Source: Lentibacillus halodurans
GTDB lineage: Bacteria > Bacillota > Bacilli > Bacillales > Amphibacillaceae
NCBI RefSeq assembly: GCF_900112045.1
Contig: NZ_FOJW01000007.1
Coordinates: 124,001 to 188,000 of the forward strand
DNA: 64,000 nucleotides
Direction of reading: 5' to 3'
A program made the position numbers and the translations under genes. The notes below the pieces were generated by a model. It was given only the letters and a program-made list of their open reading frames with translations. It was not told the origin of the DNA and did not search any database. Positions 19,354 to 60,254 of the stretch are shown in pieces (positions within the stretch are counted from its first letter, which is position 1; every line of letters starts with the position of its first letter).

Positions 19354-20287
19354 CCAGTGTTGCAGATGAAATAGGAGTTAATGAAAAGACTGTACGAAAT
19401 ATCTTTAATGACTACGTTACAGAACTTGAAGCACAAACAGATTTCAGAACTCCCAAATGGCTTGGTATTGAAGAAGTCCATTTGCTGAAAAACTATCGTT
19501 GCGTCATCACAGATGTTGAAAATAAGTCCGTAATTGACATTTTACGAAAACGAAATAAAGATACGGTTATCAGTTACCTATCAAAATTTCAGGACATTGA
19601 TAAAAATCGAACTTGTACCAATGGATATGTGGAATCCTTATAAAAGTGCAGTTAGTACAGTGATACCACATGCCAAAATCGTAATCGACAAGTTTCATGT
19701 GGTTAAATTAGCCAATGAAGCGTTAGAAAAAATACGAAAGGCTAACCGACAAAATGTGTCAGCCAAAGAACGTAGACAACTTATGAGGGATCGTTATGTG
19801 CTACTTACAAGACGAAAAGACCTTAACGACTTCGATGATCAAATAAAGTTGCAAATATGGACTGATAATTTCCCATTACTTGGTCAAGCCTACGAACTTA
19901 AAGAGCAATTCTTTGAGATATATGAAGCTAAATCGATTAATGAAGCCTATAAACTTTATCAAAGCTGGCTATCAAATGTACCTAAAGAATTATTGCCTTA
20001 TTTTGCGGATCTGATAAAAGCAATGAATAATTAGGAAGAAGAAATATTCAATCGTTTAATTAAGACAATCGTGGCTACTCTTTGAAGCCCTCAGAGCAAA
20101 AATTTTATTTACACAAGGCTATCGTAAAGTAAAAAAGAAATTCCCAGAAGTTGAAGTTACTTTCGGAAAAATGTTACCTGATCACTTCCCAAATTGGGCA
20201 CAAACTGGTTATGAATGGGTGTATGAGGAAATCTATGGGGTTGATTTTTCCACACTGATAAAGGTTATGGAAGAGGGTACCTTTTAA
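19354..20287 (+). pseudogene. ISL3-family transposase, decayed
   Basis: Parts of one transposase in three frames. The N-terminal third is missing; homology starts near VADEIGVNEKTVRNIF and continues with WLGIEEVHLLKNYRCVITD. An extra A in the run at 19601-19606 shifts the frame. Then come VPMDMWNPYKSAVSTVIPHA and the DDE-region segment KIVIDKFHVVKLAN. TAG at 20032-20034 replaces an expected Trp codon (NN-stop-EEEIFN). A deletion of about 30 codons follows, and the C-terminal part ALRAKILFTQGYRKVKKKFP ends at 20287. No terminal inverted repeats were found. It is an old, inactive insertion. Confidence 0.85.
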
Positions 20288-25013: not shown

Positions 25014-25769
25014 ATGACAGATTCTTTTCCTGTTATGGAAAAAGCGGCGGAATTCTATTATTCCGGAAACAAAACTGGAGTGCTTGTGATTCACGGATTT
25101 ACTGGAACGACACAGAGTATGTATTATCTTGGTGAGCAGTTGGCTAACGAGGGTTTTACCGTATTGGGTCCACGATTGAAAGGACATGGAACTGACCCCG
25201 AGAATATGGAACTAGCCACCTATCAGGATTGGATTGAAACAGTGGAAAATGGACTGGAAAAATTGCAGGCCATCTGTGATGATGTGTTTGTGGCAGGATT
25301 GTCCATGGGTGGAACACTGACGCTTTATCTAGCGGAAACACATCCCAGCATAAAAGGGATTATGCCCATTAATGCCGCCACGCATATGCCTGATTTGATT
25401 GAGAGCTATGAGTCCCTGAAAAACTCAGATATCCGATTTGTGGAAGGTATCGGGTCCGATATTAAACAGGAAGGGATCGAGGAACTGGCCTATAGCAAGA
25501 CGCCGGTTAAATCGATGCGGGAAATTATGGTGTTGTCTGAGATTGTGCGCCATAATCTGGCAAGCGTGAAAGCACCTGCTATGATATTTTCTTCTGCTGT
25601 TGATCATGTCGTTCCCCCGGAGAATTCACGGGAAATCTATGAATCCATCTCCTCAGGCATCCGGGAATTTATCATGCTGGAAAACAGTTATCATGTCGCA
25701 ACGCTGGACAATGATAAGGACCTGATTGCGAAGAAGTGTTCGGAATTTATCAGGAAATGGGAAGATTAG
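25014..25769 (+). CDS. Carboxylesterase (Est30-like alpha/beta hydrolase)
   Basis: 251 residues. VLVIHGFTGTTQSMYYLGEQ is the oxyanion-hole region, AGLSMGGT holds the nucleophile serine, SSAVDHVVPPENS the aspartate, and NSYHVATLDNDKD the histidine. This matches the Geobacillus Est30/B. subtilis YvaK family. The ATG at 25014 has GGAGGG upstream; an in-frame ATG at 24993 does not. A decayed copy of its last third lies at 36350, so the sugar locus between them was either inserted beside it or came with a duplication. Confidence 0.9.
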   Translation: MTDSFPVMEKAAEFYYSGNKTGVLVIHGFTGTTQSMYYLGEQLANEGFTVLGPRLKGHGTDPENMELATYQDWIETVENGLEKLQAICDDVFVAGLSMGGTLTLYLAETHPSIKGIMPINAATHMPDLIESYESLKNSDIRFVEGIGSDIKQEGIEELAYSKTPVKSMREIMVLSEIVRHNLASVKAPAMIFSSAVDHVVPPENSREIYESISSGIREFIMLENSYHVATLDNDKDLIAKKCSEFIRKWED

Positions 25770-25870: not shown

Positions 25871-25980
25871 TTGTAACGAACTTAAGTTTATTATAATATA
25901 TACGTATGGAAACGATTACAGATAATTAACCTCCTTAAGGTGCTTTCAATCTTTTTTTAAAAAATGTGTAAACGTTTACA
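25871..25980 (+). promoter_or_regulatory. Promoter and two operators of the LacI-type regulator gene
   Basis: TTGTAA (25871) and TATAAT/TAATAT (25892-25899) make a plausible promoter. TGGAAACGATTACA (25907-25920) lies at the expected transcription start, and the perfect palindrome TGTAAACGTTTACA (25967-25980) lies 20 bases before the gene. Both have the central CG of LacI-family sites, and a third similar site precedes the binding-protein gene at 28613. Autoregulation is inferred; CcpA binding to the same sequences is also possible. Confidence 0.65.
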
Positions 25981-25999
25981 GGTAAGGTGAGAGATTAAA

Positions 26000-26998
26000 A
26001 TGAAGAATGTAACAATAAGAGATATTGCAAATGAGTTGGGTATTTCAATTGCAACGGTATCCAGAGTGTTGAATGATAGTGGATATGCCAGCAAAGAGGT
26101 AAAAGAACAAGTATTCAGTATGGCAGAGAAGCTTAGATACCAGCCAAACGCAGTTGCGAGGAGTCTGAAAAATCATCGTACAAACACAATAGGGATTATT
26201 ATTCCTGATATTTCGAATCCATACTTTATGACGATCTCTAAAGGGATTGAAGATTCAGTACGGGAATATGGCTACCATCTAATTTTTATGAGTGGGAATG
26301 AGAATCCAGTAAAAGAAAAAAAGATGTTGCAAGTTCTTATAGAAAAAAGGGTAGATGCACTCGTATTAGCAACGTCTGGAAAAAATGAGGATGTGATTAG
26401 AAATATTAAGGAAAGTGGCGTTCCTATTGTTTTGATTGACAGAAAACTTCGTGAAGATTCCCTTGGTTTGGACTTAGTTGTAGAGGATAACATTAAAGGT
26501 GCTTATGATCTAACGAATTATCTCTTAGAGCGTGGCCACCATAGAATTGGGGTTATTAACGGGTCATTAGAAGTCAGCACGGGCTTTGAACGTTATGAAG
26601 GATTTCGAAAAGCTATACATGAAAAAGGTTTAGAAGCAAATCCTGAGTTGATATTTAATGGCAATTTTACAAAAGAAGATGGTATCAATGCTGTTGACTA
26701 TTTTTTGAACCTTCAAAATAAACCAAGTGCTATTCTGTCTTTCAATAACACGATGGCCTTTGGTGCTATTATTCAATTAACAAAAAACGGATATTCAGTT
26801 CCGCATGATATGGTTGTTGCATCATTTGGTGAAGTGGAAGCTGCGCAGATCTTAAAGCCATCTAGCATAATCACAATTAAGCAATCTCCTTATGAAATGG
26901 GTCTCCGAGCAGGAGAAATTCTTTTGGAACACCTGTTAGATAATGCAAAAGAACTTGGTAAAACCATATTTGATCCGCATTTAAGTATAAGTGAGTAA
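26000..26998 (+). CDS. LacI-family transcriptional regulator of the sugar locus
   Basis: 332 residues. The HTH is at the N-terminus (IRDIANELGISIATVSRVLN), followed by the hinge helix around YQPNAVARSLK and a periplasmic-binding-protein-like effector domain beginning TIGIIIPDISNPYF. It heads the locus and is flanked by sites of the TGTAAACGTTTACA type. The likely effector is a sugar or sugar phosphate from the pathway encoded downstream. The gene is more AT-rich than its left neighbours. Confidence 0.9.
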   Translation: MKNVTIRDIANELGISIATVSRVLNDSGYASKEVKEQVFSMAEKLRYQPNAVARSLKNHRTNTIGIIIPDISNPYFMTISKGIEDSVREYGYHLIFMSGNENPVKEKKMLQVLIEKRVDALVLATSGKNEDVIRNIKESGVPIVLIDRKLREDSLGLDLVVEDNIKGAYDLTNYLLERGHHRIGVINGSLEVSTGFERYEGFRKAIHEKGLEANPELIFNGNFTKEDGINAVDYFLNLQNKPSAILSFNNTMAFGAIIQLTKNGYSVPHDMVVASFGEVEAAQILKPSSIITIKQSPYEMGLRAGEILLEHLLDNAKELGKTIFDPHLSISE

Positions 26999-27011
26999 AC
27001 CTAGGTTTACT
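26994..27011. repeat. Perfect 18-base palindrome over the regulator stop codon
   Basis: AGTAAACCTAGGTTTACT is fully self-complementary. It has the GTAAAC/GTTTAC half sites of the operators but with CTAG between them instead of a central CG, and no T-run. It could be an extra regulator site or an mRNA hairpin between the regulator and the isomerase gene. Confidence 0.5.
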
Positions 27012-27041
27012 ATATAAAATCATTTAAAAAGGAGGGAGAAC

Positions 27042-27638
27042 ATGGGAATATTAGATCGTATTAATAGAGTGATAGAAATAGAAGCCACATCTATTACGGA
27101 ACTTTCCAAACAAATTGGTCCTGATTATGAATTGGCTGTCAATATGATAAATGACTGCAGTGGGAAAGTTGTGGTTACCGGAGTAGGTAAATCAGGGCAT
27201 GCCGGAAAGAAAATAGCTGCTACTTTAGCAAGCACTGGAACACCAGCTTTTTTTGTACACAGCACTGAAGGAATCCACGGTGATTTAGGGATGATTCAAA
27301 AAGAAGACATCGTAATCATGATATCCAATAGTGGTGAAACTTCAGAGGTGATAAGTCTATTGCCTTCCTTAATTAAGATCGGCTCAAGAAATATTGCAAT
27401 TACATCCAAGAAAAATTCAACGTTGGCTGATGCTTGCGACATTGCACTCACTTATCAATATGAAAGTGAAGCTGATCACCTTGGATTGGCGCCTACAACA
27501 AGCTCGACGATCGCATTGGTTATTGGAGATGTATTAGCGGCTAGTCTTTCCGAATTGAAAAACTTTAGTAAAGACGATTTTCATGTTTATCATCCAGGTG
27601 GTAGTTTGGGAGAACAATTATCCAGAAAATCACAATAA
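27042..27638 (+). CDS. SIS-domain sugar-phosphate isomerase, arabinose-5-phosphate isomerase (KdsD/GutQ)-like
   Basis: 198 residues forming a single SIS domain. VVVTGVGKSGHAGKKIAATL, STGTPAFFVHSTEGIHGDLG, MISNSGETSEV and the C-terminal YHPGGSLGEQL are close to the SIS domain of KdsD/KpsF/GutQ enzymes, which interconvert D-ribulose 5-phosphate and D-arabinose 5-phosphate. The tandem CBS domains of KdsD are absent; short forms are known. No Kdo pathway is expected in a Gram-positive, so a catabolic role is likely. It lies just before a PfkB kinase gene, with AGGAGGG upstream. Confidence 0.85.
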   Translation: MGILDRINRVIEIEATSITELSKQIGPDYELAVNMINDCSGKVVVTGVGKSGHAGKKIAATLASTGTPAFFVHSTEGIHGDLGMIQKEDIVIMISNSGETSEVISLLPSLIKIGSRNIAITSKKNSTLADACDIALTYQYESEADHLGLAPTTSSTIALVIGDVLAASLSELKNFSKDDFHVYHPGGSLGEQLSRKSQ

Positions 27639-27652
27639 AGGAAGTAGATCGA

Positions 27653-28585
27653 GTGGGAATATTAGTTATTGGTAGTTTTATGATGGATTTAGTAGTCGTT
27701 ACTCCACGTGCTCCGGAAAATGGAGAAACTATAATAGGGTCGAAATTTTCAAGATTTCCGGGCGGAAAGGGCGCTAATCAAGCTGTATCAGCATCAAGAC
27801 TGGGCGGAAGTGTCACAATGGCTGGAAAGATAGGCAAGGATCAATTCGGTAATGAAGCCATAAGAACATTACAGGATGAACAAATTAATACGAAATATAT
27901 CAAAAGAGATTCACAAAAAGCTACAGGTATCGGTGTGGTTACGATAGAAGAAAACGGACATAATCGGATCATTGTCGTACCTGGTGCTAATTTAGACTAT
28001 GATACAGAAAATTTAAGGGAAATCGAAGCTCTCATCAAAAAAACTGACATTTTAGTCATACAGCTGGAAATGGATTTAAACATGATTGAGCAAGCTGTAA
28101 TGCTAGCTTCCAAACATATGATACCAATTATTTTGAATCCGGCTCCTGCACAAAAATTAAGCGATCATATGTTGAATCATATAACGTATCTTACGCCAAA
28201 TGAGACAGAAGCCGAAATACTGACCGGTATCAGCATAACGACTAGGGAAGACGCAAAGGATGCTGCTGAAATGCTTTTAGATAAAGGGGTAAAGAACGTT
28301 ATTCTCACCCTTGCTGAAGAAGGTGCATTAATTGTGAATAAATATGGGAAACAGATGATTCCAGGATTCACTGTAGGGTCCGTTGATTCAGTTGCAGCTG
28401 GAGATGCCTTCAATGGTGCCTTAGCTGTCGGGATCACAGAAGGAAAACCTTTAAACGAAGTAGTGCGATATGCCAATGCTGTTGGTGCATTAACAGTGAC
28501 AAAAGAAGGAGCTATTCCATCATTGCCGACGTCAGAGGATGTTATGAATTTTATACTGAAGCTGAAAGGCCACGATAGCAGGTAA
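27653..28585 (+). CDS. PfkB-family sugar kinase (ribokinase-like)
   Basis: 310 residues. The N-terminal PfkB motif GSKFSRFPGGKGANQAVSAS and the C-terminal VDSVAAGDAFNGALAVGI, with the catalytic aspartate, are present. It is distinct from the true rbsK at 56480, which has the same fold and length but sits in a ribose operon. Here it starts with GTG 14 bases after the isomerase gene. Inferred role: 5-phosphorylation of the sugar released by the GH172 enzyme, feeding the isomerase. Fructose or ribose as substrate cannot be excluded. Confidence 0.88.
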   Translation: MGILVIGSFMMDLVVVTPRAPENGETIIGSKFSRFPGGKGANQAVSASRLGGSVTMAGKIGKDQFGNEAIRTLQDEQINTKYIKRDSQKATGIGVVTIEENGHNRIIVVPGANLDYDTENLREIEALIKKTDILVIQLEMDLNMIEQAVMLASKHMIPIILNPAPAQKLSDHMLNHITYLTPNETEAEILTGISITTREDAKDAAEMLLDKGVKNVILTLAEEGALIVNKYGKQMIPGFTVGSVDSVAAGDAFNGALAVGITEGKPLNEVVRYANAVGALTVTKEGAIPSLPTSEDVMNFILKLKGHDSR

Positions 28586-28612
28586 TGCAACGAGGGTTTT
28601 TTTCACAATTTA

Positions 28613-28626
28613 TGAAAACGTTTACT
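28613..28626 (+). promoter_or_regulatory. Operator before the sugar-binding protein gene
   Basis: TGAAAACGTTTACT shares 12 of 14 bases with the palindrome before the LacI-type gene (25967). It also fits a cre. It lies in the 83-base gap between the kinase and importer genes, implying a second regulated transcript from here. Confidence 0.6.
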
Positions 28627-28668
28627 TATTAACATTAGATTTTTACAAAAATGAGGAGAGGTTAGAAA

Positions 28669-29937
28669 ATGAATATTCTGAAAATTATGATAGGTTCTGG
28701 CTTTGTAATGGTTTTACTGTTCATGTCTGGATGTTCCTCTGAATCTTCAGGTGAGTCCGAAGAGGTCGTAAATTTAACTTTTTGGGATTTTCATTCAGAT
28801 AATGATCAAGAATTTTTCGAAGGCCTGGTTGATGAGTATAACGATATGCAGGATGATGTGAAAATTGAGTATTCAACGACAAATAACCTTACAGATTACT
28901 CTAATACAAAATTGCCTGTTGCCTTTGCAAATAATGAAGGCCCTGACATTTTTATGACTAGTCCAGGTGATTTCCAAAAGTATGCAGATGCTGGGGTTAT
29001 GGCGGATTTAACACCATATTTTGAGGATGGGATCAAAGAGGATTTTCTTCCATCGGCATTAGAGGCTGTAACGGTCGATGATAAGATACTTGCGCTTCCA
29101 TTTGAACTGGAGCTGCTTGGCCTGTATTACAATAAAACAATGCTGGATGAAGCAAATGTTGAGGTTCCAGAAACATGGGATGAGTTACTGGAAGCAGCTA
29201 AAAAACTTACAACGGATGAAGTTTCTGGTATTGCACTTCCTACTGATAAAGGTTCCTATCTTAACTTCGTCTGGTATCCTTTCTTATGGCAGAATGGCGG
29301 ATCTGTGTTAAGCGAAGATGGTAAAGAATCTACTTTTAATACACCTGAAGTAGCAGAAGCGTTAGAGATGTGGGGTTCGTTTTTCCAGGAAGGTGCTGCC
29401 CCATCAAAATTACAAATAGACCCGACAGATATTGGAAACCTGGGCAGTGGATCGGCAGCCATGCAAATTGTTGGCACATGGGCTATTCCAATGCTTGAAA
29501 ATGAATATGGTGATGGTGACGAATATGGTTTGACACCAATTCCTATTCCTGCAGGTGGAGAATCGGCAACTGCTGCTGGAGGCTGGAAACTTGCCGTTAA
29601 TTCGAACAGTGAACATATTGAGGAAGCAGCTGAATTTGTTATGTGGGCACTGGCTGATGATAAGGAGCGCCCATTAGAATATGTTACGGAAACAAAGTTC
29701 GCATATTCGCCACGTGAATCTGTTGTAGAAGAGGGCGAAGAAATTTATGACAAAGGACTCCGCGAAGTATTCACCGAAGAAATCTATGATTCTGCAATTC
29801 CAGAGCCCGAGTTTGGTCCTGAAATTGTGGATGCAGTAGGTGAAGCATTACAAAATGTCATGTTTAGTGGCATGAGTGGTGAAGAAGCAGCAGAAATCGC
29901 GCATGAAAAAATCCAGGCTGTGCTTGACAGCAAATAA
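28669..29937 (+). CDS. ABC sugar-binding lipoprotein 1
   Basis: 422 residues, with signal peptide and lipobox ending FMSGC, anchored outside the membrane. It is an extracellular solute-binding protein of family 1 (sugar type), with NLTFWDFHSDNDQEFFEGLV near the N-terminus and GPDIFMTSPGDFQKYA following. Oligosaccharide ligands are usual. It is closely similar to the protein at 34961. Permease genes follow after a hairpin. Confidence 0.9.
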   Translation: MNILKIMIGSGFVMVLLFMSGCSSESSGESEEVVNLTFWDFHSDNDQEFFEGLVDEYNDMQDDVKIEYSTTNNLTDYSNTKLPVAFANNEGPDIFMTSPGDFQKYADAGVMADLTPYFEDGIKEDFLPSALEAVTVDDKILALPFELELLGLYYNKTMLDEANVEVPETWDELLEAAKKLTTDEVSGIALPTDKGSYLNFVWYPFLWQNGGSVLSEDGKESTFNTPEVAEALEMWGSFFQEGAAPSKLQIDPTDIGNLGSGSAAMQIVGTWAIPMLENEYGDGDEYGLTPIPIPAGGESATAAGGWKLAVNSNSEHIEEAAEFVMWALADDKERPLEYVTETKFAYSPRESVVEEGEEIYDKGLREVFTEEIYDSAIPEPEFGPEIVDAVGEALQNVMFSGMSGEEAAEIAHEKIQAVLDSK

Positions 29938-29944
29938 TGAGGTT

Positions 29945-29975
29945 GCCGATAGTTAAATGTCCGTTTACTATCGGC
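29945..29975 (+). other. Intra-operon hairpin between binding-protein and permease genes
   Basis: GCCGATAGT (29945-29953) pairs perfectly with ACTATCGGC (29967-29975); no T-run follows. Such hairpins often stabilise the upstream binding-protein message so that it is made in excess over the permeases. This is inference here. Confidence 0.6.
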
Positions 29976-30014
29976 TGCCATTTAAAACCTCGAAACCACT
30001 TGGAGGAATTGGTT

Positions 30015-30908
30015 ATGAAGCTCATTAGCAGAAATAGAAAGAAATGGAATGAAACATTGACAGCATACGGGTTCTTACTTCCAAATTTAGTGGGATTAAC
30101 TTTATTTATTTTTGTTCCAATGGTCTATGCATTCTATGTGAGTCTACATGAATGGAATGCGTTGAGTCCCAAAGTGTTTATTGGTCTGGAAAACTATAAA
30201 GAGCTCGCAGCTGATGGGCGCTGGTGGGCATCCGTTGGCAGAACATTTATTTTTACATTTATTTATGTACCCGCCCTATATTGTTTAGCATTATTTTTTG
30301 CAGTCATTTTAAACGGTTTAAAGCAAAAATATCAAAGTATTGCACGGACGATGTTTCTTTTTCCATTTGCCATTACATCTGTCATTTCAGCTGTTGTTTG
30401 GATGTTCTTGTATGACCCTAGGAATGGTTTTATCAATCAAGTGTTAAATGCTTTCGGACTGCCTAGTTTAGAATTTCTAGGTTCAACAGATCTGGCGCTG
30501 GTGTCCATTGTTGTTGTTTTTCTTTGGATAAACCTAGGGTACAATATGATCATTTTTATGGCGTCTATTAAAGAAATACCACAAGATTATTATGAAGCGG
30601 CCAGAATTGATGGTGCAACACCGTGGAAATCCTTTCGATTTATAACGTTTCCATTACTGAAGGGGACAAGCACATTTATCCTAATTGTAACGACAATCGC
30701 TTCATTCACCGTGTTTGATCAGATCATGGTTATGACAAATGGCGGTCCGGCAAGTTCTACTGAAGTTAGTGTAATTTATATTTACAAGCAAGGATTCGAA
30801 TTTCTAAATATGGGATATGCCTCAGCCTTGGCTGTCGTTTTATTCCTGATCATTTTTGTTCTTTCTCTTGCACAGTTAAGGCTTTATACGGGGAAAAAGG
30901 AGGGCTGA
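30015..30908 (+). CDS. ABC sugar transporter permease 1 (MalF type)
   Basis: About 297 residues with six membrane segments. The EAA loop is in YEAARIDGATPWKSFRFITF, where the ATPase docks. It belongs to the carbohydrate uptake type 1 (CUT1) group. ATG at 30015 has GGAGG upstream; the frame is open to 29937 but without a start of similar quality. The second permease gene begins four bases after its stop. No ATPase gene is in the locus, so a shared MsmX-type ATPase elsewhere is likely. Confidence 0.92.
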   Translation: MKLISRNRKKWNETLTAYGFLLPNLVGLTLFIFVPMVYAFYVSLHEWNALSPKVFIGLENYKELAADGRWWASVGRTFIFTFIYVPALYCLALFFAVILNGLKQKYQSIARTMFLFPFAITSVISAVVWMFLYDPRNGFINQVLNAFGLPSLEFLGSTDLALVSIVVVFLWINLGYNMIIFMASIKEIPQDYYEAARIDGATPWKSFRFITFPLLKGTSTFILIVTTIASFTVFDQIMVMTNGGPASSTEVSVIYIYKQGFEFLNMGYASALAVVLFLIIFVLSLAQLRLYTGKKEG

Positions 30909-30911
30909 ACA

Positions 30912-31721
30912 ATGAAATTGCGAAAAACGACTTTGACGATTTTTGCAATTATATGCGGACTATTCATGATTGCTCCCATCTACTTTATGATGATAGGTGC
31001 ATTTCGGACCCCTGAAACAGTTTTTGATTTGAGTCTGTTAATAAAAGAATTTACGTTTGAAAACATGAAAGCTGTTTTTGATGAGACGAATATTTTGCGG
31101 GCAATTTGGAATTCACTATTTGTTTCAACGACTGTAACGGCCGTGGCCATGATTTTTCATGCCATGTCAGGCTATGCACTAGCTCGGTTGAGATTTCCTG
31201 CAAAGTCTTTTGTGTTTGCTTGGATTATCAGCACGTTAATGGTACCGTTCACAGTCATCATGATACCACTTTATATGGTTACACAAGGGCTGGGGATGGC
31301 AAATTCGTATTTGGGTCTGATTATACCAATGATATTCAATGCTTATGGGATATTTTTATTCCGACAGTTTTATTTGGAGTTTCCAACGGAACTTGAAGAA
31401 GCGGCATATGTAGAAGGCTTATCAATTGCCGGCACCTTTTTCCGGCTTGTTCTTCCTCTTTCAAAGCCTATTATTGTTCCATTAACGATCGGTTTTTTCA
31501 CAGCTAACTGGAACAATTATTTATGGCCATTGATTATTAATCAGAGAGAAGAGTTAAATGTGGTTCAGATAGAGCTGGCAAATGTTGTTGGCGGTGGGTA
31601 TGAAACACCTTGGAGTATCGTACTGGCTGCTGCTCTTATTTCGGCTCTTCCGACATTTGTACTTTTTTTCCTGGTTCAGAAGCAATTGGTTGAAGGTGTA
31701 AAGACAACAGGCATTAAATAG
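30912..31721 (+). CDS. ABC sugar transporter permease 2 (MalG type)
   Basis: 269 residues with six membrane segments. The EAA loop is in ELEEAAYVEGLSIAGTFFRL. It forms the CUT1 channel with the preceding permease. The DUF2961 gene begins 30 bases later and is probably in the same transcript. Confidence 0.92.
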   Translation: MKLRKTTLTIFAIICGLFMIAPIYFMMIGAFRTPETVFDLSLLIKEFTFENMKAVFDETNILRAIWNSLFVSTTVTAVAMIFHAMSGYALARLRFPAKSFVFAWIISTLMVPFTVIMIPLYMVTQGLGMANSYLGLIIPMIFNAYGIFLFRQFYLEFPTELEEAAYVEGLSIAGTFFRLVLPLSKPIIVPLTIGFFTANWNNYLWPLIINQREELNVVQIELANVVGGGYETPWSIVLAAALISALPTFVLFFLVQKQLVEGVKTTGIK

Positions 31722-31751
31722 TTAATCAAATGATAAAAAGGAGACATTAAA

Positions 31752-32849
31752 TTGACTTTTACAGGAACATCATTAAGAGATTTATATCGTTTGAAATCCG
31801 CCAAAAGAAAAAGGGCATCCAGCTATGACCCAACTGGAGGCAATCGTGATTTCCTAAGGTTTTATCCAAAGGAGAGAAAAGATATTTGTGAACTGCAAGG
31901 TTCCGGTTGTATTACGCATATTTGGATGACGATGGCACCTTTAGATGATTCTATCGAAGCGTATTTGCACAGGAAAGTTATTTTGAGAATGTATTGGGAT
32001 GGTGAAAAACAGCCAAGTGTAGAAGCCCCAATAGGTGATTTTTTTGGGATGGGCCATGGTGTAACCAGAAACTTTTCATCCGCTCCTTTGCAGATGAGTC
32101 CGGAAGACGGTCGTTCTCTAAATTCTTTTTTTCCAATGCCTTTTGGAAACGGGGCAAGGATTGAGGTTGAAAGTGAAGCCGATAATCCGATCAAATTTTA
32201 TTTTTATGTTGATTATGAGGCTTATAACAAGGATATTGACAGTCCGCTTAGATTCCACGCTATATGGAAACGTGAAATAACCAAGGGCATTAAAGATAAC
32301 ACCTCCAATGAATTTTATGAATTTGGCGGTAAAAATACAACAGCAGAAGATAACTATGTCATTTTGGATGCTGAAGGCAGAGGGCACTATGTAGGCTGCA
32401 ATCTGAATATCCATAATTTACGGTTTACGCAAGAGTGGAACTGGTATGGTGAAGGTGACGACATGATTTTTATCGACGGTGAACCTTGGCCACCTTCACT
32501 GCACGGGACAGGAATGGAAGATTATTTTAACACGGCATGGTGTCCGCAACAGGAAGTATGTGCACCTTACCATGGTATTATTTTAGGCGGAGGCCCGAAT
32601 TGGTCCGGTAAAATATCCACCTACCGTTATCATATTCAAGATCCAATCATGTTTGATAAGTCAATTAAAGTAACGATTGAACATGGTCATAACAATCACA
32701 GAAGCGATGACTATTCCAGTACAGCATATTGGTATCAGACAGAGCCGCATAATATGTTCCATCCGATTTTGCCTGTGAGTGACAGGCTGCCGTTACCGGA
32801 TATTCTGCCATTTAATAATGAGAATCAAGAAAAATACTTTAATTATTAA
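31752..32849 (+). CDS. DUF2961 protein, glycoside hydrolase family GH172
   Basis: 365 residues. ASSYDPTGGNRDFLRF and GSGCITHIWMTMAP at the N-terminus, then HGTGMEDYFNTAWCPQ, are typical of DUF2961. GH172 members are exo-acting on furanosides: alpha-D-arabinofuranosidases (including D-arabinan-degrading enzymes) and alpha-D-fructofuranosidases or difructose-anhydride enzymes. No signal peptide is seen, so it should act in the cytoplasm on imported oligosaccharides. The start is TTG at 31752 with AAAGGAGA upstream. Catalytic residues were not assigned. Confidence 0.82.
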   Translation: MTFTGTSLRDLYRLKSAKRKRASSYDPTGGNRDFLRFYPKERKDICELQGSGCITHIWMTMAPLDDSIEAYLHRKVILRMYWDGEKQPSVEAPIGDFFGMGHGVTRNFSSAPLQMSPEDGRSLNSFFPMPFGNGARIEVESEADNPIKFYFYVDYEAYNKDIDSPLRFHAIWKREITKGIKDNTSNEFYEFGGKNTTAEDNYVILDAEGRGHYVGCNLNIHNLRFTQEWNWYGEGDDMIFIDGEPWPPSLHGTGMEDYFNTAWCPQQEVCAPYHGIILGGGPNWSGKISTYRYHIQDPIMFDKSIKVTIEHGHNNHRSDDYSSTAYWYQTEPHNMFHPILPVSDRLPLPDILPFNNENQEKYFNY

Positions 32850-32928
32850 GCTCGGTTGAGTGAACACTTTTTGACATCAATGATCTGCAGAAGATTTCTG
32901 AATTGAAATGTTTTAAGGAGTGATTGGG

Positions 32929-34938
32929 ATGTCAATGAAAAAAATTTTATCGGCGGGTATGGTGACATCGGTTATGCTCACATGTCACTCAGCAGCTTCT
33001 TCAATAGAAGCTGAGGAGTCTCATATACCTGAAAACAGTACTTTTTTTTCAACTGCTTATATTGAAGAATCTGACTCATATAACACAGAAAGTCAGGGAG
33101 ACCTATGGGCTTCTTGCTGGTCGGATGATGATAATCTATATGCTGCCAATGGGGATGGTGATGGATTTACAGTGAATCCGCCAAATGAGCCGAATATTCC
33201 GCCTGCTCATGAAAACCTCAATGATATTGCCGTAAGTAAAATACAGGGACAGCCAGGCAATTTAAATGGAGAAACGGTTGCGATGTCAGAGGAAATTGGC
33301 CAGGTTTGGAACGATCCGGCTCATTACAATAAAAAGCCAACAGGCATGGCGTGTGTTGATGGCGATATATATCTTGCTGTCCAAGATTTAAGCAGGGATT
33401 TTAATGATGTTCCTTCAGCCACCATTCTTAAATCCACAGATAAAGGGAAGACGTGGTCATGGGATGAATCTGCTCCTATGTTTGATGATTATACGTTCAC
33501 GACCATTATGTTTCTGGACTACGGGAAAGACTATGGAAATGCTAAGGATAACTATGTATATGCATATGGACTGGACAATAATTGGCGAGATTCATTCAAT
33601 GATAGAGTAGAAGATCCCACGAATCTTTATTTGGCAAGGGTTTCAAAATCGAGGATTATGGACCGCTCAACATGGGAGTTCTACAGCGGAGATGCAAATG
33701 GTGAACCTGAATGGTCCAATGATATAAATGATAAAAAAGCCGTATTGCAGGATGAAAGAAAAATTTATCAGGATACGTATTTTTCAGATTCTCCACAGGA
33801 TATGACCGTTATATCCCAGGGGAATGTGGTTTATAATAAACCGTTAGAGCGGTACATTTATACGTCGTGGACAGAGTATACATTTGAATTCTATGAGGCA
33901 CCGAGCCCATGGGGACCGTGGAAAAGATTTATGACGAAAGATTACGGTGCTTATCCCTGGACAGATACTAAAAATGGCGGATATGCCACGACGATACCTT
34001 CAAAATTTATCAGTGATGATGGCAAGGAAATGTTCGTTCAGTCCAATACGTTTATGGGAGAGGTCAATAACTATAATTTTTCATTAAGAAAACTAACGGT
34101 TGAACCATATAGCCCGTCAACTCCTGATAATGATAAAGACAATTACGCAAACCTTGCTGTGGTCGGTGAGGGGACAATACCGATTAACAAAGTTGCCCAT
34201 TACGGAAATGTAGATTATGTCAATAATGGGGTACGTCAAGAGTCAGAAGACAGCTGGAATAATGAAGCCAAGTTACTTGATTGGTGGGGATATAAGTGGG
34301 AAAAAAATTATAATTTTAATCATGTGATCTATACAACCGGAGATATTTATCCCGATGGAGGCTGGTTCAAGGAAGATTTAAAAGTCCAAGTGAGGCAAAA
34401 CTTTGAATGGGTTGATGTATCAAACCTCTCGTCTACACCAGAGTATCCATTTGACGAAACAGCAGGTACGAATAAAACTTATTCATTTGATTTTGATGAT
34501 ACGTGGGGGGATGCTGTTCGTATTATAGGTCTTCCGGGCGGAAACAGGAGTTTCACCTCGATCGGAGAGCTGGCGGTTTTCTATCGAAATGACGATCCTC
34601 CAAACAATAAACGGTTCACTCTGAAAAATACAGAAATGACTAAAACGAAATCGGAAGGGATTTCGGTAAAAACGACTGTAGACCGCACTGCCAATACTGA
34701 TGACCATGAAGGGAAAGAAAGTATCATTTTGCAGCTTAGGAAGAACAACAAACCTGTTGATGTTATGGCAACCAGGAAAGATATACAGCAATCAGAAGAG
34801 ATCATGGTGTCTTTTCAGCGGAAAGATGATTTGAAGAAATACAGCGTTAAGGCCGTCGTGGCAAATTCATTAGAAGATTTTCTGTCAGGTGAAGATGAAG
34901 CGGAGATTTTATCAAATGAAATGATCATTTCAGAGTAA
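32929..34938 (+). CDS. Secreted DUF4185-like (GH183-like) protein with C-terminal accessory domains
   Basis: 669 residues with a signal peptide (MKKILSAGMVTSVML then a polar region). The first 400 residues resemble DUF4185 beta-propeller proteins: GDLWASCWSDDDNLYAANGD, PTGMACVDGDIYLAV, STDKGKTWSW, LARVSKSRIMDRSTWEFY, then SPWGPWKRF. DUF4185 corresponds to GH183, described as endo-D-arabinanases. Residues of about 410-560 look like a discoidin-type beta-sandwich (DWWGYKWEKNYNFNHVIYTT, then DDTWGDAVRIIGLPGG), possibly carbohydrate-binding, followed by an Ig-like end. ATG at 32929 has AAGGAG upstream. The family assignment is from memory of motifs, so only moderately sure. Confidence 0.65.
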   Translation: MSMKKILSAGMVTSVMLTCHSAASSIEAEESHIPENSTFFSTAYIEESDSYNTESQGDLWASCWSDDDNLYAANGDGDGFTVNPPNEPNIPPAHENLNDIAVSKIQGQPGNLNGETVAMSEEIGQVWNDPAHYNKKPTGMACVDGDIYLAVQDLSRDFNDVPSATILKSTDKGKTWSWDESAPMFDDYTFTTIMFLDYGKDYGNAKDNYVYAYGLDNNWRDSFNDRVEDPTNLYLARVSKSRIMDRSTWEFYSGDANGEPEWSNDINDKKAVLQDERKIYQDTYFSDSPQDMTVISQGNVVYNKPLERYIYTSWTEYTFEFYEAPSPWGPWKRFMTKDYGAYPWTDTKNGGYATTIPSKFISDDGKEMFVQSNTFMGEVNNYNFSLRKLTVEPYSPSTPDNDKDNYANLAVVGEGTIPINKVAHYGNVDYVNNGVRQESEDSWNNEAKLLDWWGYKWEKNYNFNHVIYTTGDIYPDGGWFKEDLKVQVRQNFEWVDVSNLSSTPEYPFDETAGTNKTYSFDFDDTWGDAVRIIGLPGGNRSFTSIGELAVFYRNDDPPNNKRFTLKNTEMTKTKSEGISVKTTVDRTANTDDHEGKESIILQLRKNNKPVDVMATRKDIQQSEEIMVSFQRKDDLKKYSVKAVVANSLEDFLSGEDEAEILSNEMIISE

Positions 34939-34960
34939 TGAGATCGGAGGATTGTAAAAG

Positions 34961-36214
34961 ATGCGGCTAAAGGTGATTTTTGGTTGTTTCGTGTTTTTTC
35001 TTTTTTTGCTTGGGTGTTCATCATCTGAAACGGCTGAAAGTTCTCAGGACCCTGTTACATTGAAATTCTGGGATTTTCAGTTTGATATGCATCAGGAATT
35101 GTTTCAGGATATGGTGGATGAATATAACTCGATACAGGATGATGTGAAAATTGAATATTCGTCTCATGGCAATTCAACAGATTATTCCAATCAAAAACTC
35201 CCTGTAGCATTTGCAAACGAAGAAGGACCTGATATATTCCTGACGAGTGCGGGTGATTTTAACAAGTATGCAAATGCAGGTGTCTTGGCAGATTTATCAC
35301 CTTATTTTACAGATTCGATTCAAAATGACTTTCTTCCGTCAACACTAGAGGCTGTGAAGTATGACGGTAATATTCTCGCTATGCCGCTTGAGATGGAACT
35401 TTTAGGGTTGTTCTATAATCAAGAATTGCTGGAAGAACAGAATATAGATCCACCGGGAACATGGGACGAATTATTGGATGCTGCACGACAGCTTACAACA
35501 GATGAGGTATCCGGGCTTGTTCTGCCGACAGATAAAGGACCCTATTTGAATTTTATATGGTACCCATTTTTATGGCAAAATGATGGAAATGTTTTAAACG
35601 ATGATCATTCAGCGTCAACTTTTGATTCTCAGGCAGCTGCTGAGGCGCTGGATTACTGGGGTACGTTTTTTGAAGAAGGGTTAGCTCCGTCAAAGTTGCA
35701 GGAAGGGGCGGGTGATATTGATAACATCACAAATGGAACTGCTGCTATGCAAGTTACCGGTACTTGGGCCATTTCAGATCTGGAAAATAAGTTTCCGGAT
35801 TTTAACGCAGGCTTGGTACCGATACCAATTCCGGAAGGCGGAAGTCATGCAACGGCTGGAGGTGGATGGAAACTCGCCGCTAATGCAAATGGGGATCATG
35901 TCGAGGAAGCAGCGGAATTTATTATGTGGGCGTTTGGTGAAGATTCCGCAAGACCACTGAAATGGGCTAAGATGAAATCTGCTTATCCGGCGAGGAGATC
36001 TGTATTGGAAGATGGCGAAGAATACTTTCAGAGTGGTCTCAGGGAAGTATTCACCAATCAAATTTACGATTCAGCAATTCCCGAACCGCGTTTCGATGCT
36101 CAGGTAGTAGATGCAGTTGGAGAAGCGTTGCAAAATGTTATGTTCAACGATGTCAGCGGGAAAGAAGCAGTAGAGGCTGCTCATGAAAAAATTGAAGGAG
36201 TTGTGTCAGAATAA
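34961..36214 (+). CDS. ABC sugar-binding lipoprotein 2
   Basis: 417 residues with lipobox LLGCSSS. It is a clear paralogue of the protein at 28669; TDYSN, KLPVAFAN, EGPDIF, DKG.YLNF and GEALQNVMF recur in the same order. It follows the DUF4185-like gene by 22 bases and is the last gene of the locus. Two receptors for one permease pair suggest two related ligands, for example oligosaccharides of different length. A weak hairpin with a T-run at about 36220-36275 may terminate transcription. Confidence 0.9.
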   Translation: MRLKVIFGCFVFFLFLLGCSSSETAESSQDPVTLKFWDFQFDMHQELFQDMVDEYNSIQDDVKIEYSSHGNSTDYSNQKLPVAFANEEGPDIFLTSAGDFNKYANAGVLADLSPYFTDSIQNDFLPSTLEAVKYDGNILAMPLEMELLGLFYNQELLEEQNIDPPGTWDELLDAARQLTTDEVSGLVLPTDKGPYLNFIWYPFLWQNDGNVLNDDHSASTFDSQAAAEALDYWGTFFEEGLAPSKLQEGAGDIDNITNGTAAMQVTGTWAISDLENKFPDFNAGLVPIPIPEGGSHATAGGGWKLAANANGDHVEEAAEFIMWAFGEDSARPLKWAKMKSAYPARRSVLEDGEEYFQSGLREVFTNQIYDSAIPEPRFDAQVVDAVGEALQNVMFNDVSGKEAVEAAHEKIEGVVSE

Positions 36215-36349: not shown

Positions 36350-36541
36350 ATGGCATTATCTGAGATTGTGCGCCATAACCTGGCAAACTTGAAAGCACCT
36401 GCCATGATTTTTCCCTCGTCTGTTGATCATGTCGTTCCACCGGAGAATTCAGGGAGCTCTATGAATCCCTTTTGTCTGGTGGTGCACCGTTATGATGATA
36501 TCATCACCTACTCAAAATGTCATTTTTACGTTGAAAAATAG
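36350..36541 (+). pseudogene. Fragment of a second esterase gene
   Basis: The translation LSEIVRHNLANLKAPAMIF followed by DHVVPPENS matches the C-terminal third of the esterase at 25014 almost word for word, and the DNA is also similar. After the aspartate region the frame goes off and the histidine segment is lost. No N-terminal part is found upstream. It is a broken duplicate marking the right end of the sugar locus. Confidence 0.8.
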
Positions 36542-55488: not shown

Positions 55489-56466
55489 ATGGCGACAATC
55501 CGTGATGTAGCTAAGCTTGCGAAGGTTTCGACTGCAACAGTTTCCAGGGTTATTAACCGCAATGGTTATGTCAATGAAGGAACCAAAAAGCGGGTCAAGG
55601 ATGCGATTGAACAATTGAATTACTTGCCGAATGATGTGGCACGAAGTCTATTTAAAGGGCGGTCGAAAATGATTGCGCTGTTTGTGCCGGATATTACGAA
55701 CCCATTTTTCCCTGAAATGGCACGTGCTGTAGAGGATGTCACAAACAGGCATGATTATACGTTTGTACTGTGCAATACGGATAATGATATTGCGAAACAA
55801 ATCGATTACTTGAATGCACTGCAGCAAAAGTCAGTCGATGGATTTATTATTGTTTCAAGCTCAATGACGGAAGAACATCTGCAGCACATTCAAGTACCGA
55901 TTGTCGCTCTTGACCGGATCATAAGCCCGGATATTTCCTCTGTAACGGTAAACAACCGTGGGGGGAGCAGACAGGCGGTTCAATATTTGAAATCGATCGG
56001 CTGCACTAGGATTGCACATATAGCTGGTCCGGAACACGTAAACAATGCTGTATACCGCATGCAAGGTTATCTGGATGAAGTAAATAATGCAGACTGGTTC
56101 ACAGAAGATTATATTATACCCGGAAAATATAATTTCGATGCTGCCCGGGATGCTGCTGTTAAGCTATTAAACACGCACTCGGAAGTTGATGGCATCTTTG
56201 TCGGAAATGATCTAATGGGGGCCGGGGTATTGAATGCGGCAGTTTCTGTTGGAAGGAAAGTGCCGGATGATCTGGCAGTAATCGGATTCGACGGGATTGC
56301 CATTGGTGAAACGATCACACCAACACTGACAACGATGGCTCAGCCTATTTATGACATTGGTGCGAAGGCTGCTGAAATGCTGATCAAACAAATCAACAGT
56401 CAGGAGCCGGCTGTTATGAATGAAGAATTTACTGTTCAATTAGTTGAACGACAATCAACGCTGTGA
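55489..56466 (+). CDS. rbsR: Ribose operon repressor, LacI family
   Basis: 325 residues. HTH ATIRDVAKLAKVSTATVSRV and hinge NYLPNDVARSLFKGRS, then the ribose-binding-like effector domain starting KMIALFVPDITNPFFPEMAR. First gene of rbsRKDACB, the B. subtilis order. It should repress from the palindromes at 55398 and 55437 and be released by ribose or a ribose phosphate. Confidence 0.92.
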   Translation: MATIRDVAKLAKVSTATVSRVINRNGYVNEGTKKRVKDAIEQLNYLPNDVARSLFKGRSKMIALFVPDITNPFFPEMARAVEDVTNRHDYTFVLCNTDNDIAKQIDYLNALQQKSVDGFIIVSSSMTEEHLQHIQVPIVALDRIISPDISSVTVNNRGGSRQAVQYLKSIGCTRIAHIAGPEHVNNAVYRMQGYLDEVNNADWFTEDYIIPGKYNFDAARDAAVKLLNTHSEVDGIFVGNDLMGAGVLNAAVSVGRKVPDDLAVIGFDGIAIGETITPTLTTMAQPIYDIGAKAAEMLIKQINSQEPAVMNEEFTVQLVERQSTL

Positions 56467-56479
56467 AAGGAGGAATTGG

Positions 56480-57376
56480 ATGAGTACGCAACCGAATGTA
56501 TGTATCGTAGGAAGTATTAATATGGACTTGACAGTAACGACCGACAAGATGCCGATGAAGGGTGAAACGGTTCTGGGCAATAAGTTTTTCACCAACCCAG
56601 GCGGGAAGGGAGCCAATCAAGCCGTAGCTGCTGCACGTATGGGCGCGAATGTGAATTTCATCGGAGCTGTCGGGGCTGATTCATTTGGCGAAACAGTTCT
56701 CGCAAATTTTACGAAGGAAGGTATTCAGACAGAAGGGATTGAAACGATTCCGGATGCATCAACTGGAACGGCAACAATCATTTTATCGGAAAATGATAAT
56801 CGCATCATTGTTGCATCGGGTGCTAATCATCATGTGACACCGGAGCTGGCGAAGAAACATGCTGACCTGATTAAACATAGCGATATAGTGCTGCTGCAGC
56901 TTGAAGTACCGATGGAGACCATTGTATTCACAATAGATGTCGCTGAGGCGAATGGTGTACCGGTTATTCTGAATCCTGCTCCATTCGAGGCGCTCCCGAA
57001 AAAAGTTTTAAAAACCGTTGCTTACTTGACGCCAAATGAAATTGAACTTGCGTCAATGAAAAAAGATCCGTTGTTTGCGTCGATCAAGGAAAAGCTGATT
57101 GTTACCCGGGGTGATAAGGGTATATCGTTTGTTGCCAACGGTGGTGAACGGGATATCAGCGGGTATAACATTCAAGTGGCGGATACAACCGGAGCCGGGG
57201 ACACATTCAACGGCGCATTGGCTGCCGAACTGGCGGGTGGAACAGGCTTGCATAAAGCAATTAGCATGGCGAACGCCGCTGCAGCCTTGTCGGTTTCAAA
57301 AATTGGCGCGCAAGGCGGGATGCCAGCCAAACGGGATGTTACCGAATTTTTACGGGAAAGGGAAATGTTCGAATGA
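56480..57376 (+). CDS. rbsK: Ribokinase
   Basis: 298 residues. GSINMDLTVTTDKMPMKGET and FTNPGGKGANQAVAAARMGA at the N-terminus; VADTTGAGDTFNGALAAELA carries the catalytic aspartate and anion hole. Phosphorylates D-ribose at O5. ATG 56480 has AAAGGAGGA upstream; the frame extends upstream into rbsR without a better start. It overlaps rbsD by four bases. Confidence 0.94.
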   Translation: MSTQPNVCIVGSINMDLTVTTDKMPMKGETVLGNKFFTNPGGKGANQAVAAARMGANVNFIGAVGADSFGETVLANFTKEGIQTEGIETIPDASTGTATIILSENDNRIIVASGANHHVTPELAKKHADLIKHSDIVLLQLEVPMETIVFTIDVAEANGVPVILNPAPFEALPKKVLKTVAYLTPNEIELASMKKDPLFASIKEKLIVTRGDKGISFVANGGERDISGYNIQVADTTGAGDTFNGALAAELAGGTGLHKAISMANAAAALSVSKIGAQGGMPAKRDVTEFLREREMFE

Positions 57377-57768
57377 AAAAAGCAGGGATGTTAAATCGGG
57401 ATATTGCTTCAATACTGGCAAGAATGGGGCATACCGACACGATTATTATTGCGGACTGTGGACTGCCGCTTCCGGATGACACCGTTACGATTGATCTGTC
57501 GATAAAAATTGGTACACCGGATTTTCTGATGGTGCTTGAGGCGGTAGCCCAAGATATGGTGATTGAAGAAATGACGCTGGCAGAAGAAATCAAAACAGCG
57601 AATTTAGCATTGCATAACCGGCTTAAATCGGACTATGCGGACGTGCCAATTCGGTATATGACACATGAAGGACTAAAAGGTGAAATCAAACATACCAAAG
57701 CAGTTATACGTACAGGGGAATCAACCCCTTTTGCCAATACCATTTTAAAATCAGGCGTTATTTTCTAG
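57373..57768 (+). CDS. rbsD: D-ribose pyranase
   Basis: 131 residues. [20 protein letters not shown] is the RbsD signature with its active-site histidine. It converts beta-ribopyranose to the furanose form used by ribokinase. The start overlaps the rbsK stop (ATGA). Confidence 0.94.
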
Positions 57769-57788
57769 CGGAAAGAGGAGGTGGCATC

Positions 57789-59288
57789 ATGGCAAATACC
57801 CCTTTTGTAGAGATGAAGGGAATCAATAAGTCATTTTCCGGCAATCAGGTTCTAAAAAATGTAAACTTCTCGATCAATCAAGGTGAGGTGCATGCCTTAG
57901 TCGGTGAAAACGGTGCCGGGAAATCGACCCTGATCAAAATATTGACCGGGATCCATAAACGTGATCAAGGTGCTATCAAGCTGAATGGAGAGGAAGTTTA
58001 TTTTTCCCATCCGAAAGAGGCAGAACAACAGGGGATCATGGTTATCCATCAGGAACTGAATATCATTCCGCATTTGACGGTCACCGAAAACATGTTTATA
58101 GGTAAAAATTTGACCTATGGCAAAACCGGTGTTCTGAATACAAAGACAATGCGGAAACAATGTGAAGCAAACTTGCAAAAACTAGGCGTATCGAACATTC
58201 ATCCGGATGACATTGCCGGGGACTTATCAGTCGGCAAACAGCAGATGATTGAAATTGCCCGTGCGATATCTACGAATGCTGAATTGATTGTAATGGATGA
58301 ACCGACTGCTGCATTGACAGACCGTGAAATTGAAAGTCTTTTTGACGTTGTCGAGTCGTTGCGGAAACAAGGTGTTGCGGTAATTTATATTTCACACCGG
58401 ATGGAAGAAATTTTTAGAATCTGTGACCAGATTACCGTCTTGCGTGATGGTGAATATATCGGGACTGAAAATATTACCGATGTGGACTTTGAAGCTATTG
58501 TCAAAATGATGGTTGGACGTGAACTGGGCGAACGGTTTCCGGAGCGGGAACATACTGCCGGTGAAGTTATCTTTGAAGTAAAGGATTTGGCGCGAAAAGG
58601 ATTATTCCAGGATATCAATTTTTCGGTTAAGGAAGGTGAAATTCTGGGTGTTGCCGGATTGATGGGGGCCGGACGTTCAGAAATGGTGGAGACGATTTTC
58701 GGTTATGCCCGGAAACAGAATGGACGGCTATATCTGAATGGTCAGGAATTAACGGTTAAACATCCCTCAGACGCGATTAAAGCGGGCATCGGTTTTATTA
58801 CTGAAGACCGGAAATCGAAAGGGCTGCTCACTGATTTTTCCATAGGGGATAATATTTCACTGACAAATATGAAATCGATCTCCAAAAATGGTGTCATTTC
58901 TGCTAAAAAAGAGCATCGGCTAATTGCTGAATTAATGGATCGGCTAAAAGTTAAAGCGACCGGTGCTGCTCAAGAAGCGAAGGCATTAAGCGGGGGTAAT
59001 CAGCAAAAAGTGGTAATTGCCAAATGGCTCGGCATCAAACCGAAACTGCTCATTTTGGACGAGCCGACAAGAGGTGTTGATGTCGGGGCAAAGAAAGAAA
59101 TCTATTCGATTATGAATGAACTGACCAAAAACGGCGTGGCTATCATCATGGTTTCCTCGGAACTGCCTGAAATTCTAGGTGTCAGTGACCGGATCATGGT
59201 GATTCATGAAGGAAAAATAGCGACCATACTCAATCGTGATGAAGCAGATCAGGAGAAAATTATGACAGCAGCAGCGGGGGGTGAGTGA
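57789..59288 (+). CDS. rbsA: Ribose ABC transporter ATPase
   Basis: 499 residues, two fused ATPase domains. The first has Walker [10 protein letters not shown], signature [13 protein letters not shown] and Walker [10 protein letters not shown]. The second has a degenerate Walker A (GLMGAGRSE), signature [15 protein letters not shown] and [13 protein letters not shown]. This asymmetry is normal for RbsA/MglA. GAAAGAGGAGGTG precedes the ATG. Confidence 0.95.
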
Positions 59289-59289
59289 G

Positions 59290-60231: not shown

Positions 60232-60254
60232 ACTATGTTAAGGAGGAATTTTCA

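Follow-up and report, generated by a model that had tools for sequence, protein, structure and literature searches.

What sugar, or what polymer, does a tightly packed run of genes in Lentibacillus halodurans serve? The nine genes, all on the + strand, lie at 26000-36214 of a stretch of 64,000 nucleotides (positions 124,001 to 188,000 of contig NZ_FOJW01000007.1, assembly GCF_900112045.1), which is called the window here. D-Arabinan is an unusual sugar polymer characteristic of mycobacterial and corynebacterial walls, and the families of its degrading enzymes were described in 2023. The locus probably serves the utilisation of D-arabinan or D-arabinofuranosides by a route in which the sugar is phosphorylated first. 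This answer was proposed in an earlier sequence-only reading, and it is now favoured by a fold match to the endo-D-arabinanase EndoMA1, a tree of GH172 enzymes, a glycine at position 98 of the kinase (Escherichia coli RbsK numbering) and gene neighbourhoods in Bacillales. All of the genes named in that reading are present: a KdsD-like SIS isomerase, a PfkB kinase, a CUT1 importer with two sugar-binding proteins, a DUF2961 enzyme and a secreted DUF4185-like protein.

In the proposed scheme, the secreted GH183-like enzyme would cleave alpha-D-arabinofuranosyl chains extracellularly. The CUT1 importer, consisting of two binding lipoproteins and two permeases and probably energised by a MalK-type ATPase encoded elsewhere, would take up the resulting oligosaccharides, from which the cytoplasmic GH172 enzyme would split D-arabinose. 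The ribokinase-like kinase would then form D-arabinose 5-phosphate, and the short KdsD protein would isomerise it to D-ribulose 5-phosphate, which would feed the pentose phosphate pathway, with the LacI protein acting as putative repressor of the operon. Observed here are the genes present, their placement by family and fold, the catalytic residues, the conservation of neighbourhoods and the residue pattern of the kinase; each of these reactions is inferred, and so are the sugar imported, the inducer and the polymer used in nature. Actinobacterial wall arabinan would be a natural source. The features of the locus are as follows.

25907..25920, no strand assigned: operator-like site TGGAAACGATTACA (motif search of the window)
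25967..25980, no strand assigned: operator-like perfect palindrome TGTAAACGTTTACA, before lacI (motif search of the window)
26000..26998, + strand: LacI-family regulator (PF00356, PF00532)
27042..27638, + strand: candidate short KdsD-type D-arabinose 5-phosphate isomerase, SIS domain only, 198 amino acids (KdsD/KpsF best in NCBIfam)
27653..28585, + strand: PfkB kinase resembling ribokinases, candidate for D-arabinokinase, with Gly98 in E. coli RbsK numbering (TIGR02152)
28613..28626, no strand assigned: a third site of this kind, with two mismatches, ahead of the importer and hydrolase part (motif search of the window)
28669..29937, + strand: CUT1 sugar-binding lipoprotein (PF01547; lipobox by eye)
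29937..30908, + strand: CUT1 permease (PF00528, BPD_transp_1)
30912..31721, + strand: CUT1 permease (PF00528, BPD_transp_1)
31752..32849, + strand: GH172 (DUF2961) protein without signal peptide, candidate exo-alpha-D-arabinofuranosidase, with E234, E256 and C264 (PF11175, 282.5 bits)
32920..34938, + strand: secreted propeller protein of GH183-like type, probably starting at ATG 32929 (PF13810, 43.9 bits; AlphaFold2 model; Foldseek)
34961..36214, + strand: second CUT1 sugar-binding lipoprotein (PF01547, SBP_bac_1; lipobox by eye)

The isomerase and kinase pair

The SIS protein scores best in NCBIfam against KdsD (PRK10892, 216 bits). It passes the KpsF subfamily model TIGR00393 (205.1 against a cut-off of 203.7) and falls short of the equivalog thresholds set for KdsD (505) and GutQ (481). 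Assignment as a 6-phospho-3-hexuloisomerase was rejected at 49 bits, versus 216 for KdsD. Residues K50, H79, E102, E143 and H184 are kept in 26 of 26 KdsD proteins from the loci described below, and are presumably the equivalents of the E. coli active-site residues K59, H88, E111, E152 and H193; the active-site His was assigned by its HPGG motif.

The neighbouring kinase exceeds the ribokinase equivalog cut-off (TIGR02152, 346.7 against 299.65), and it lacks both the ribose-type lid residue Ala98 and an rbs context. In E. coli ribokinase the A98G mutation raised kcat on D-arabinose 15-fold (PMC9604405). The window kinase has Gly98, and across the loci Gly stands there in 28 of 28 kinases, which comprise a set of 22 together with those of loci L136, L138, L141 and L212-L214. 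The kinases of L114 and L118-L120, which have no kdsD adjoining and all carry Ala98, were left out of this count; that of L114 (38% identical) lies in a stretch with GH172. Ala occupies position 98 in the rbs kinase of the host genome and in 29 of 29 control ribokinases (the retrieved loci among 48 matches outside the host genome in a 61-genome sample of the order). An IQ-TREE analysis of 58 kinase rows united its 25 locus kinases in one group, apart from the rbs kinases, with support of 93/82, just under the tool's mark of 95/80.

Gene neighbourhoods extend the association. One scan of genome contigs yielded 72 loci with relatives of the secreted protein. Both kdsD and pfkB occur in 19 of them (13 Kribbella, 2 Catellatospora, 2 Occultella, 1 Bacillus and 1 Paenibacillus). 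A FucI-like gene occurs in 11, ten of these with an FGGY kinase (Streptomyces, Nonomuraea, Actinacidiphila and Microbacterium), one locus has FGGY alone, and 41 have neither pair within the stretch around each. The kdsD and pfkB pair never accompanies a FucI-like gene (0/72). A second search, seeded from the GH172 clade and independent of the secreted protein, covered 397 genomes of the order, 10 of which matched at E<=1e-60. The kdsD gene and/or a Gly98 kinase stands with full-strength GH183 genes in L112, L136, L138 and L141 and also in L145 and L146 (Robertmurraya), with ExoMA1-type GH172 genes in L110, L111, L141, L145 and L146, and with GH116 in L111 and L138. The gene row of L138 reads GH116, GH183, Gly98 kinase, kdsD, lacI, and the order in both L145 and L146 is GH183-kdsD-GH172-importer-GH183-GH172. 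When the search was seeded with KdsD itself (394 genomes of the order, E<=1e-30), 36 matches were obtained, nine of them short (open frame up to 224 amino acids) and 27 long (327 amino acids or more). Eight of the nine short proteins lie beside a Gly98 kinase and/or GH172 or GH183 genes, the exception being G307:C38; none of the eight long ones whose surroundings were fetched (of 27) has such neighbours. Taken together, Gly98, the kept KdsD residues and the gene neighbourhoods point to a kinase and an isomerase that would act on D-arabinose.

At L214:4425-9908 and L213:8587-10302, kdsD and a Gly98 kinase stand together without GH172 or GH183 in the fetched stretch, in the former case accompanied by a 25% FGGY-like kinase. 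Such pairs perhaps serve the use of free D-arabinose or of another D-arabinoside.

Known KdsD, KpsF and GutQ proteins act in the synthesis of 3-deoxy-D-manno-octulosonic acid or capsule, or in regulation. The isomerase of the window could likewise be non-catabolic, supplying D-arabinose 5-phosphate for signalling or for the synthesis of a surface sugar, with the kinase as a second ribokinase, in keeping with its equivalog score. The isomerase equilibrium slightly favours D-arabinose 5-phosphate (PMC11591822), and a KpsF-type gene is described as dispensable in the D-ribulose locus of Citrobacter rodentium (PMC12307932). This explanation is nevertheless improbable, given that short KdsD proteins accompany Gly98 kinases and D-arabinan hydrolases in both Bacillota and Actinomycetota, that a separate rbs operon, 28 kb distant, has a kinase of its own, and that the locus kinases fall outside the rbsK group. 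A ribose role for the kinase is made unlikely by that operon and by the kinase tree.

The two candidate hydrolases

The GH172 protein starts at a TTG codon with MTFTGTSLRDL and has no signal peptide by eye. In phmmer comparisons it scores 306 bits against 4kq7, 284 against 8ah3, 269 against alphaFFase1 (7v1v) and 115 against ExoMA1 (8ic8). DgGH172c, a member of this family, is reported to be an exo-alpha-D-arabinofuranosidase (PMC10509167). Structure 8ah3 (PDB name DG02479) is taken to be that enzyme because its E233 and E254 sit at the catalytic Glu positions published for DgGH172c (PMC10115798); both are kept in the window protein as E234 and E256. Specificity for fructofuranosides or arabinofuranosides has been associated with one position, occupied by Gly299 in alphaFFase1 and Asn253 in ExoMA1 (PMC10509167). 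The window enzyme has Cys264 there, and Cys is likewise found in 8ah3 and 4kq7.

A locus for fructan, inulobiose or difructose dianhydride, in which the GH172 protein would act as alpha-D-fructofuranosidase and the kinase as fructokinase, gains some credit from the overall score of alphaFFase1, which is similar to that of DgGH172c (269 versus 284 bits). A FastTree phylogeny of 54 GH172 sequences (51 from the loci and the window, plus three PDB segments; midpoint root) separates them: the window protein groups with 8ah3 and 4kq7 in a set of 23 tips (support 0.933) that has Cys at the specificity position in 21 and Phe in two, whereas alphaFFase1 lies outside, with three GH172 proteins (L118-L120) sharing 41% identity with that of the window. 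The kinases beside those three are 25-27% identical to that of the window and have Ala98 and no adjoining kdsD. A KdsD protein, moreover, has no evident use in fructose metabolism. The fructan explanation was rejected as highly improbable on the tree, the specificity residue and the neighbourhoods. The sequence-only reading had named clustering with fructofuranosidases as a refuting result, and the window protein does not cluster with alphaFFase1.

The second candidate hydrolase carries a signal sequence by eye, and its start is likelier at ATG 32929 than at GTG 32920, with AAGGAG 8 bases before the former (by eye). PF13810 (DUF4185) reaches 43.9 bits against a cut-off of 39.5 in a six-frame search of the host genome. 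In sequence searches of the PDB, the protein alone or its profile gives only weak matches to fibre, AlyQ, sialidase and BNR proteins, and PHROGs returned no match for it; its placement was decided by the fold search described below. Its family alignment holds 51 members, the window protein and 50 sequences drawn from the 72 loci; PF13810 matches 30 of the 51, the window protein not among them. When the family profile was compared by hhalign with ten DUF4185 proteins, the probability was 98.9 (E 2.2e-17). The first of these ten is identified as EndoMA1 because the same gene, L065:11140-12675, matches 8hhv/8ic1 at E 0.

An AlphaFold2 model built from the 51 sequences (mean predicted local distance difference test, pLDDT, 86.4) comprises a catalytic domain to about residue 396, a galactose-binding-like domain at about 400-555, and a C-terminal beta region modelled at lower confidence; F5_F8_type_C_2 is found in seven of the 51 family members. 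Foldseek, run against a library of 350,542 chains, places EndoMA1 (8ic1/8hhv) at ranks 1 and 2 (E 1.8e-19 and 3.3e-18) and Mycobacterium tuberculosis AraH2 (8an0) at rank 12. In the global profile alignment D61 and D79 align with D33 and D51 of EndoMA1 at the same spacing of 18, R223 with R198, and Q300 with E243 (EndoMA1 open-frame numbering runs 43 ahead of the published residue numbers). A MAFFT joint alignment instead sets EndoMA1 D33 on S58, D51 on D79 and R198 on W222, and the profile alignment was preferred for residue equivalences. Conservation in the family is 50/50 for D61, 51/51 for D79, 51/51 for R223 and 50/51 for Q300. The model and alignments indicate a distant member of DUF4185/GH183 that has a propeller of the GH183 type and lies in a branch apart. 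The label DUF4185-like given in the sequence-only reading holds as to membership, weakly by sequence and better by profile and fold, and not as to close kinship. A protein outside DUF4185, named there as a refuting result, was thus not what the tests returned; the structure prediction called for there returned EndoMA1 as top fold match, with both catalytic Asp positions kept.

The same branch includes L065:9986-11086 (PF13810 51 bits, 366 residues, computed isoelectric point 4.3), which directly precedes EndoMA1 (MIAR_33230). By its position, length and isoelectric point this gene should be MIAR_33220 of Microbacterium arabinogalactanolyticum, which encodes a protein of 300-400 residues and isoelectric point 4.3-4.6 that was insoluble and whose function was called elusive by its authors (PMC10509167). 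The gene was induced by D-arabinose and by mycobacterial wall extract, although the text prints MIAR_32220 (PMC10509167).

Members of the GH183-like branch also occur in Haloplasma-like, Avimonas and other metagenome-assembled genomes (L031, L032 and L035, with two copies each, L029 and L055), and no pair of kdsD and kinase was found in the fetched stretches of these loci. A separate Bacillales genome (G085) has seven DUF4185 matches over four contigs and looks like a D-arabinan specialist.

D-Arabinofuranosides could be the substrate even if the secreted protein is no endo-D-arabinanase, and instead cuts another linkage or only binds. Such a view is a variant that overlaps the D-arabinan reading, and the likelihoods of the two are not to be added. 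Its branch is uncharacterised and shows a Glu-to-Gln change, 41 of the 72 loci with relatives have neither downstream pair in the stretch around each, and MIAR_33220 was insoluble and of elusive function. On balance this variant is rather unlikely, with both catalytic Asp residues kept, EndoMA1 as the best structural match, and the induced Microbacterium relative directly before EndoMA1.

Counter-evidence and genomic setting

Several observations weigh against utilisation of D-arabinan by this route. As to the downstream genes, an overlap of 2.9 loci would be expected if the two pairs were independent, and the chance of zero is about 0.025 before allowing for kinship; because kinship among the loci further weakens that figure, their mutual exclusion is suggestive only. 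Among the 19 kdsD loci, 13 come from Kribbella. Identity is only 23-25% for five of the 11 FucI-like matches, and no kinase of the locus type was found in the fetched stretches of the two Robertmurraya genomes with kdsD. The Thermus ribokinase 8cqx also has Gly at position 98, and since the locus kinases form one group, Gly98 may be a single evolutionary event. The Km of E. coli RbsK A98G for D-arabinose is 310 mM, with ribose far preferred (PMC9604405), and this lowers confidence in the proposed route.

For the secreted protein, hmmscan of the protein itself gave no match in Pfam, DUF4185 included. Full-length superposition on EndoMA1 is loose (template-modelling scores 0.38/0.51, root-mean-square deviation 12.7, 14% identity), and sialidases come next in the Foldseek list at E 2.9e-10. 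We know of no assayed member of its branch. The third acidic residue, E243 of EndoMA1, is missing, the branch having Gln there in 50 of 51 members, and E243Q nearly abolished activity in EndoMA1 (PMC10509167). The Glu mutant of DgGH4185b kept most of its activity (PMC10115798). Lastly, the host genome has no GH116 and no second DUF4185 or DUF2961 match, so beta-capped ends would not be removable by known enzymes.

The genome (3.67 Mb) also lacks a Fucose_iso_C protein. It encodes one MalK-type ATPase, an OB_MalK protein on another contig, alongside the binding proteins and two permeases that make up the CUT1 importer. At 55489-61199 of the window lie genes identified as rbsR, K, D, A, C and B, the kinase (at 56444) by TIGR02152 and the others by eye. 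Within the locus, successive gaps between genes are 43, 14, 83, -1, 3, 30, 70 and 22 bases. An Rfam scan of the window found one tRNA and nothing else.

The LacI gene and the matching operators noted in the sequence-only reading are both found, the latter as three predicted sites. Eight motif matches occur in the window, both strands counted (the three sites of the locus plus 47701 and 50926); shuffled windows gave a mean of 1.6, and eight were reached in 0 of 100 shuffles. A related locus (L001) has three perfect copies at 2919-3015, directly before lacI at 3017, and no copy was found in the relative L039. The motif is also compatible with the consensus of the catabolite-responsive element bound by CcpA, and the repressor acting at these sites may be the LacI protein or CcpA.

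Downstream of the locus, at 36350-36468, lies a degenerate 120-base copy, 87% identical to 25527-25646 of the upstream alpha/beta-hydrolase gene. This copy is the footprint of an insertion or duplication, and together with the lower G+C of the locus (39.4% versus 43.4% for the whole window) it suggests gain by insertion. Two more genomes of this genus were in the sample, and neither showed a GH172 match. Further upstream, at 19534-20034, a frame resembles part of a transposase by eye.

Relation to known systems

D-Arabinan loci themselves are known; what is new is the kinase-first pair, with its Gly98 signature and its distribution, together with the loci in Bacillales. As the sequence-only reading had supposed, no report of such a pathway in Bacillaceae was found in the open-licence literature, nor any open-licence paper tying KdsD and a ribokinase-like gene to D-arabinan. 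A broader proposal is somewhat more likely than not: that short KdsD and the Gly98 kinase form a dedicated D-arabinose module of Bacillota and Actinomycetota, replacing the isomerase and FGGY pair; that they are the genes of Enzyme Commission activity EC 2.7.1.54 and of the catabolic phosphoarabinoisomerase; and that the secreted protein founds a Gln-bearing GH183 branch. If true, the locus would represent a Bacillales route for D-arabinan recycling, candidate genes for a kinase activity that has long lacked a sequence, and a catabolic role for the short KdsD-type isomerases of Gram-positive bacteria. It would also provide natural kinases with the Ala-to-Gly change engineered earlier for arabinoside synthesis, and more relatives of MIAR_33220, a protein whose role was left unsettled by its discoverers.

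The same two reactions have a precedent. Volk (about 1959-62) reportedly described a two-step route of D-arabinokinase and phosphoarabinoisomerase in Propionibacterium pentosaceum, whose taxonomy name is Acidipropionibacterium acidipropionici. A 2007 survey of orphan enzymes, which also lists P. pentosaceum, gives the grade "difficult" to EC 2.7.1.54, the number that we take to be this kinase activity (PMC1940265).

Two other systems resemble the locus in part. The Rbl D-ribulose locus of C. rodentium likewise combines a sugar importer, a kinase and a KpsF-type isomerase, but its kinase is an FGGY D-ribulokinase, its substrate is ribulose and its isomerase is dispensable (PMC12307932). The polysaccharide utilisation locus (PUL) PUL42 of Dysgonomonas gadei pairs a DgGH172c-type GH172 with DUF4185 enzymes; it is a Gram-negative PUL, and a predicted fucose isomerase is its most abundant carbohydrate-active enzyme on D-arabinan (PMC10115798).

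A further close likeness in composition is with the D-arabinan PUL of M. arabinogalactanolyticum (L065), which has a LacI protein, a CUT1 importer, GH172 (L065:8123-9235, ExoMA1) and DUF4185 proteins, including one 47% identical to the secreted protein of the window (PMC10509167). Shimokawa et al. called that layout typical of Gram-positive bacteria and closed their pathway with "an isomerase and a kinase" (PMC10509167), to which a Fucose_iso_C protein and a kinase of the FGGY family correspond in the L065 stretch. The Microbacterium PUL additionally has GH116 and three further GH183 genes, and its GH172 belongs to another clade, whereas the window locus lacks GH116, has a single distant GH183 and carries KdsD with a ribokinase-like kinase. 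Unlike in the D-arabinan eaters described so far, the sugar appears to be used here by phosphorylation first and isomerisation second.

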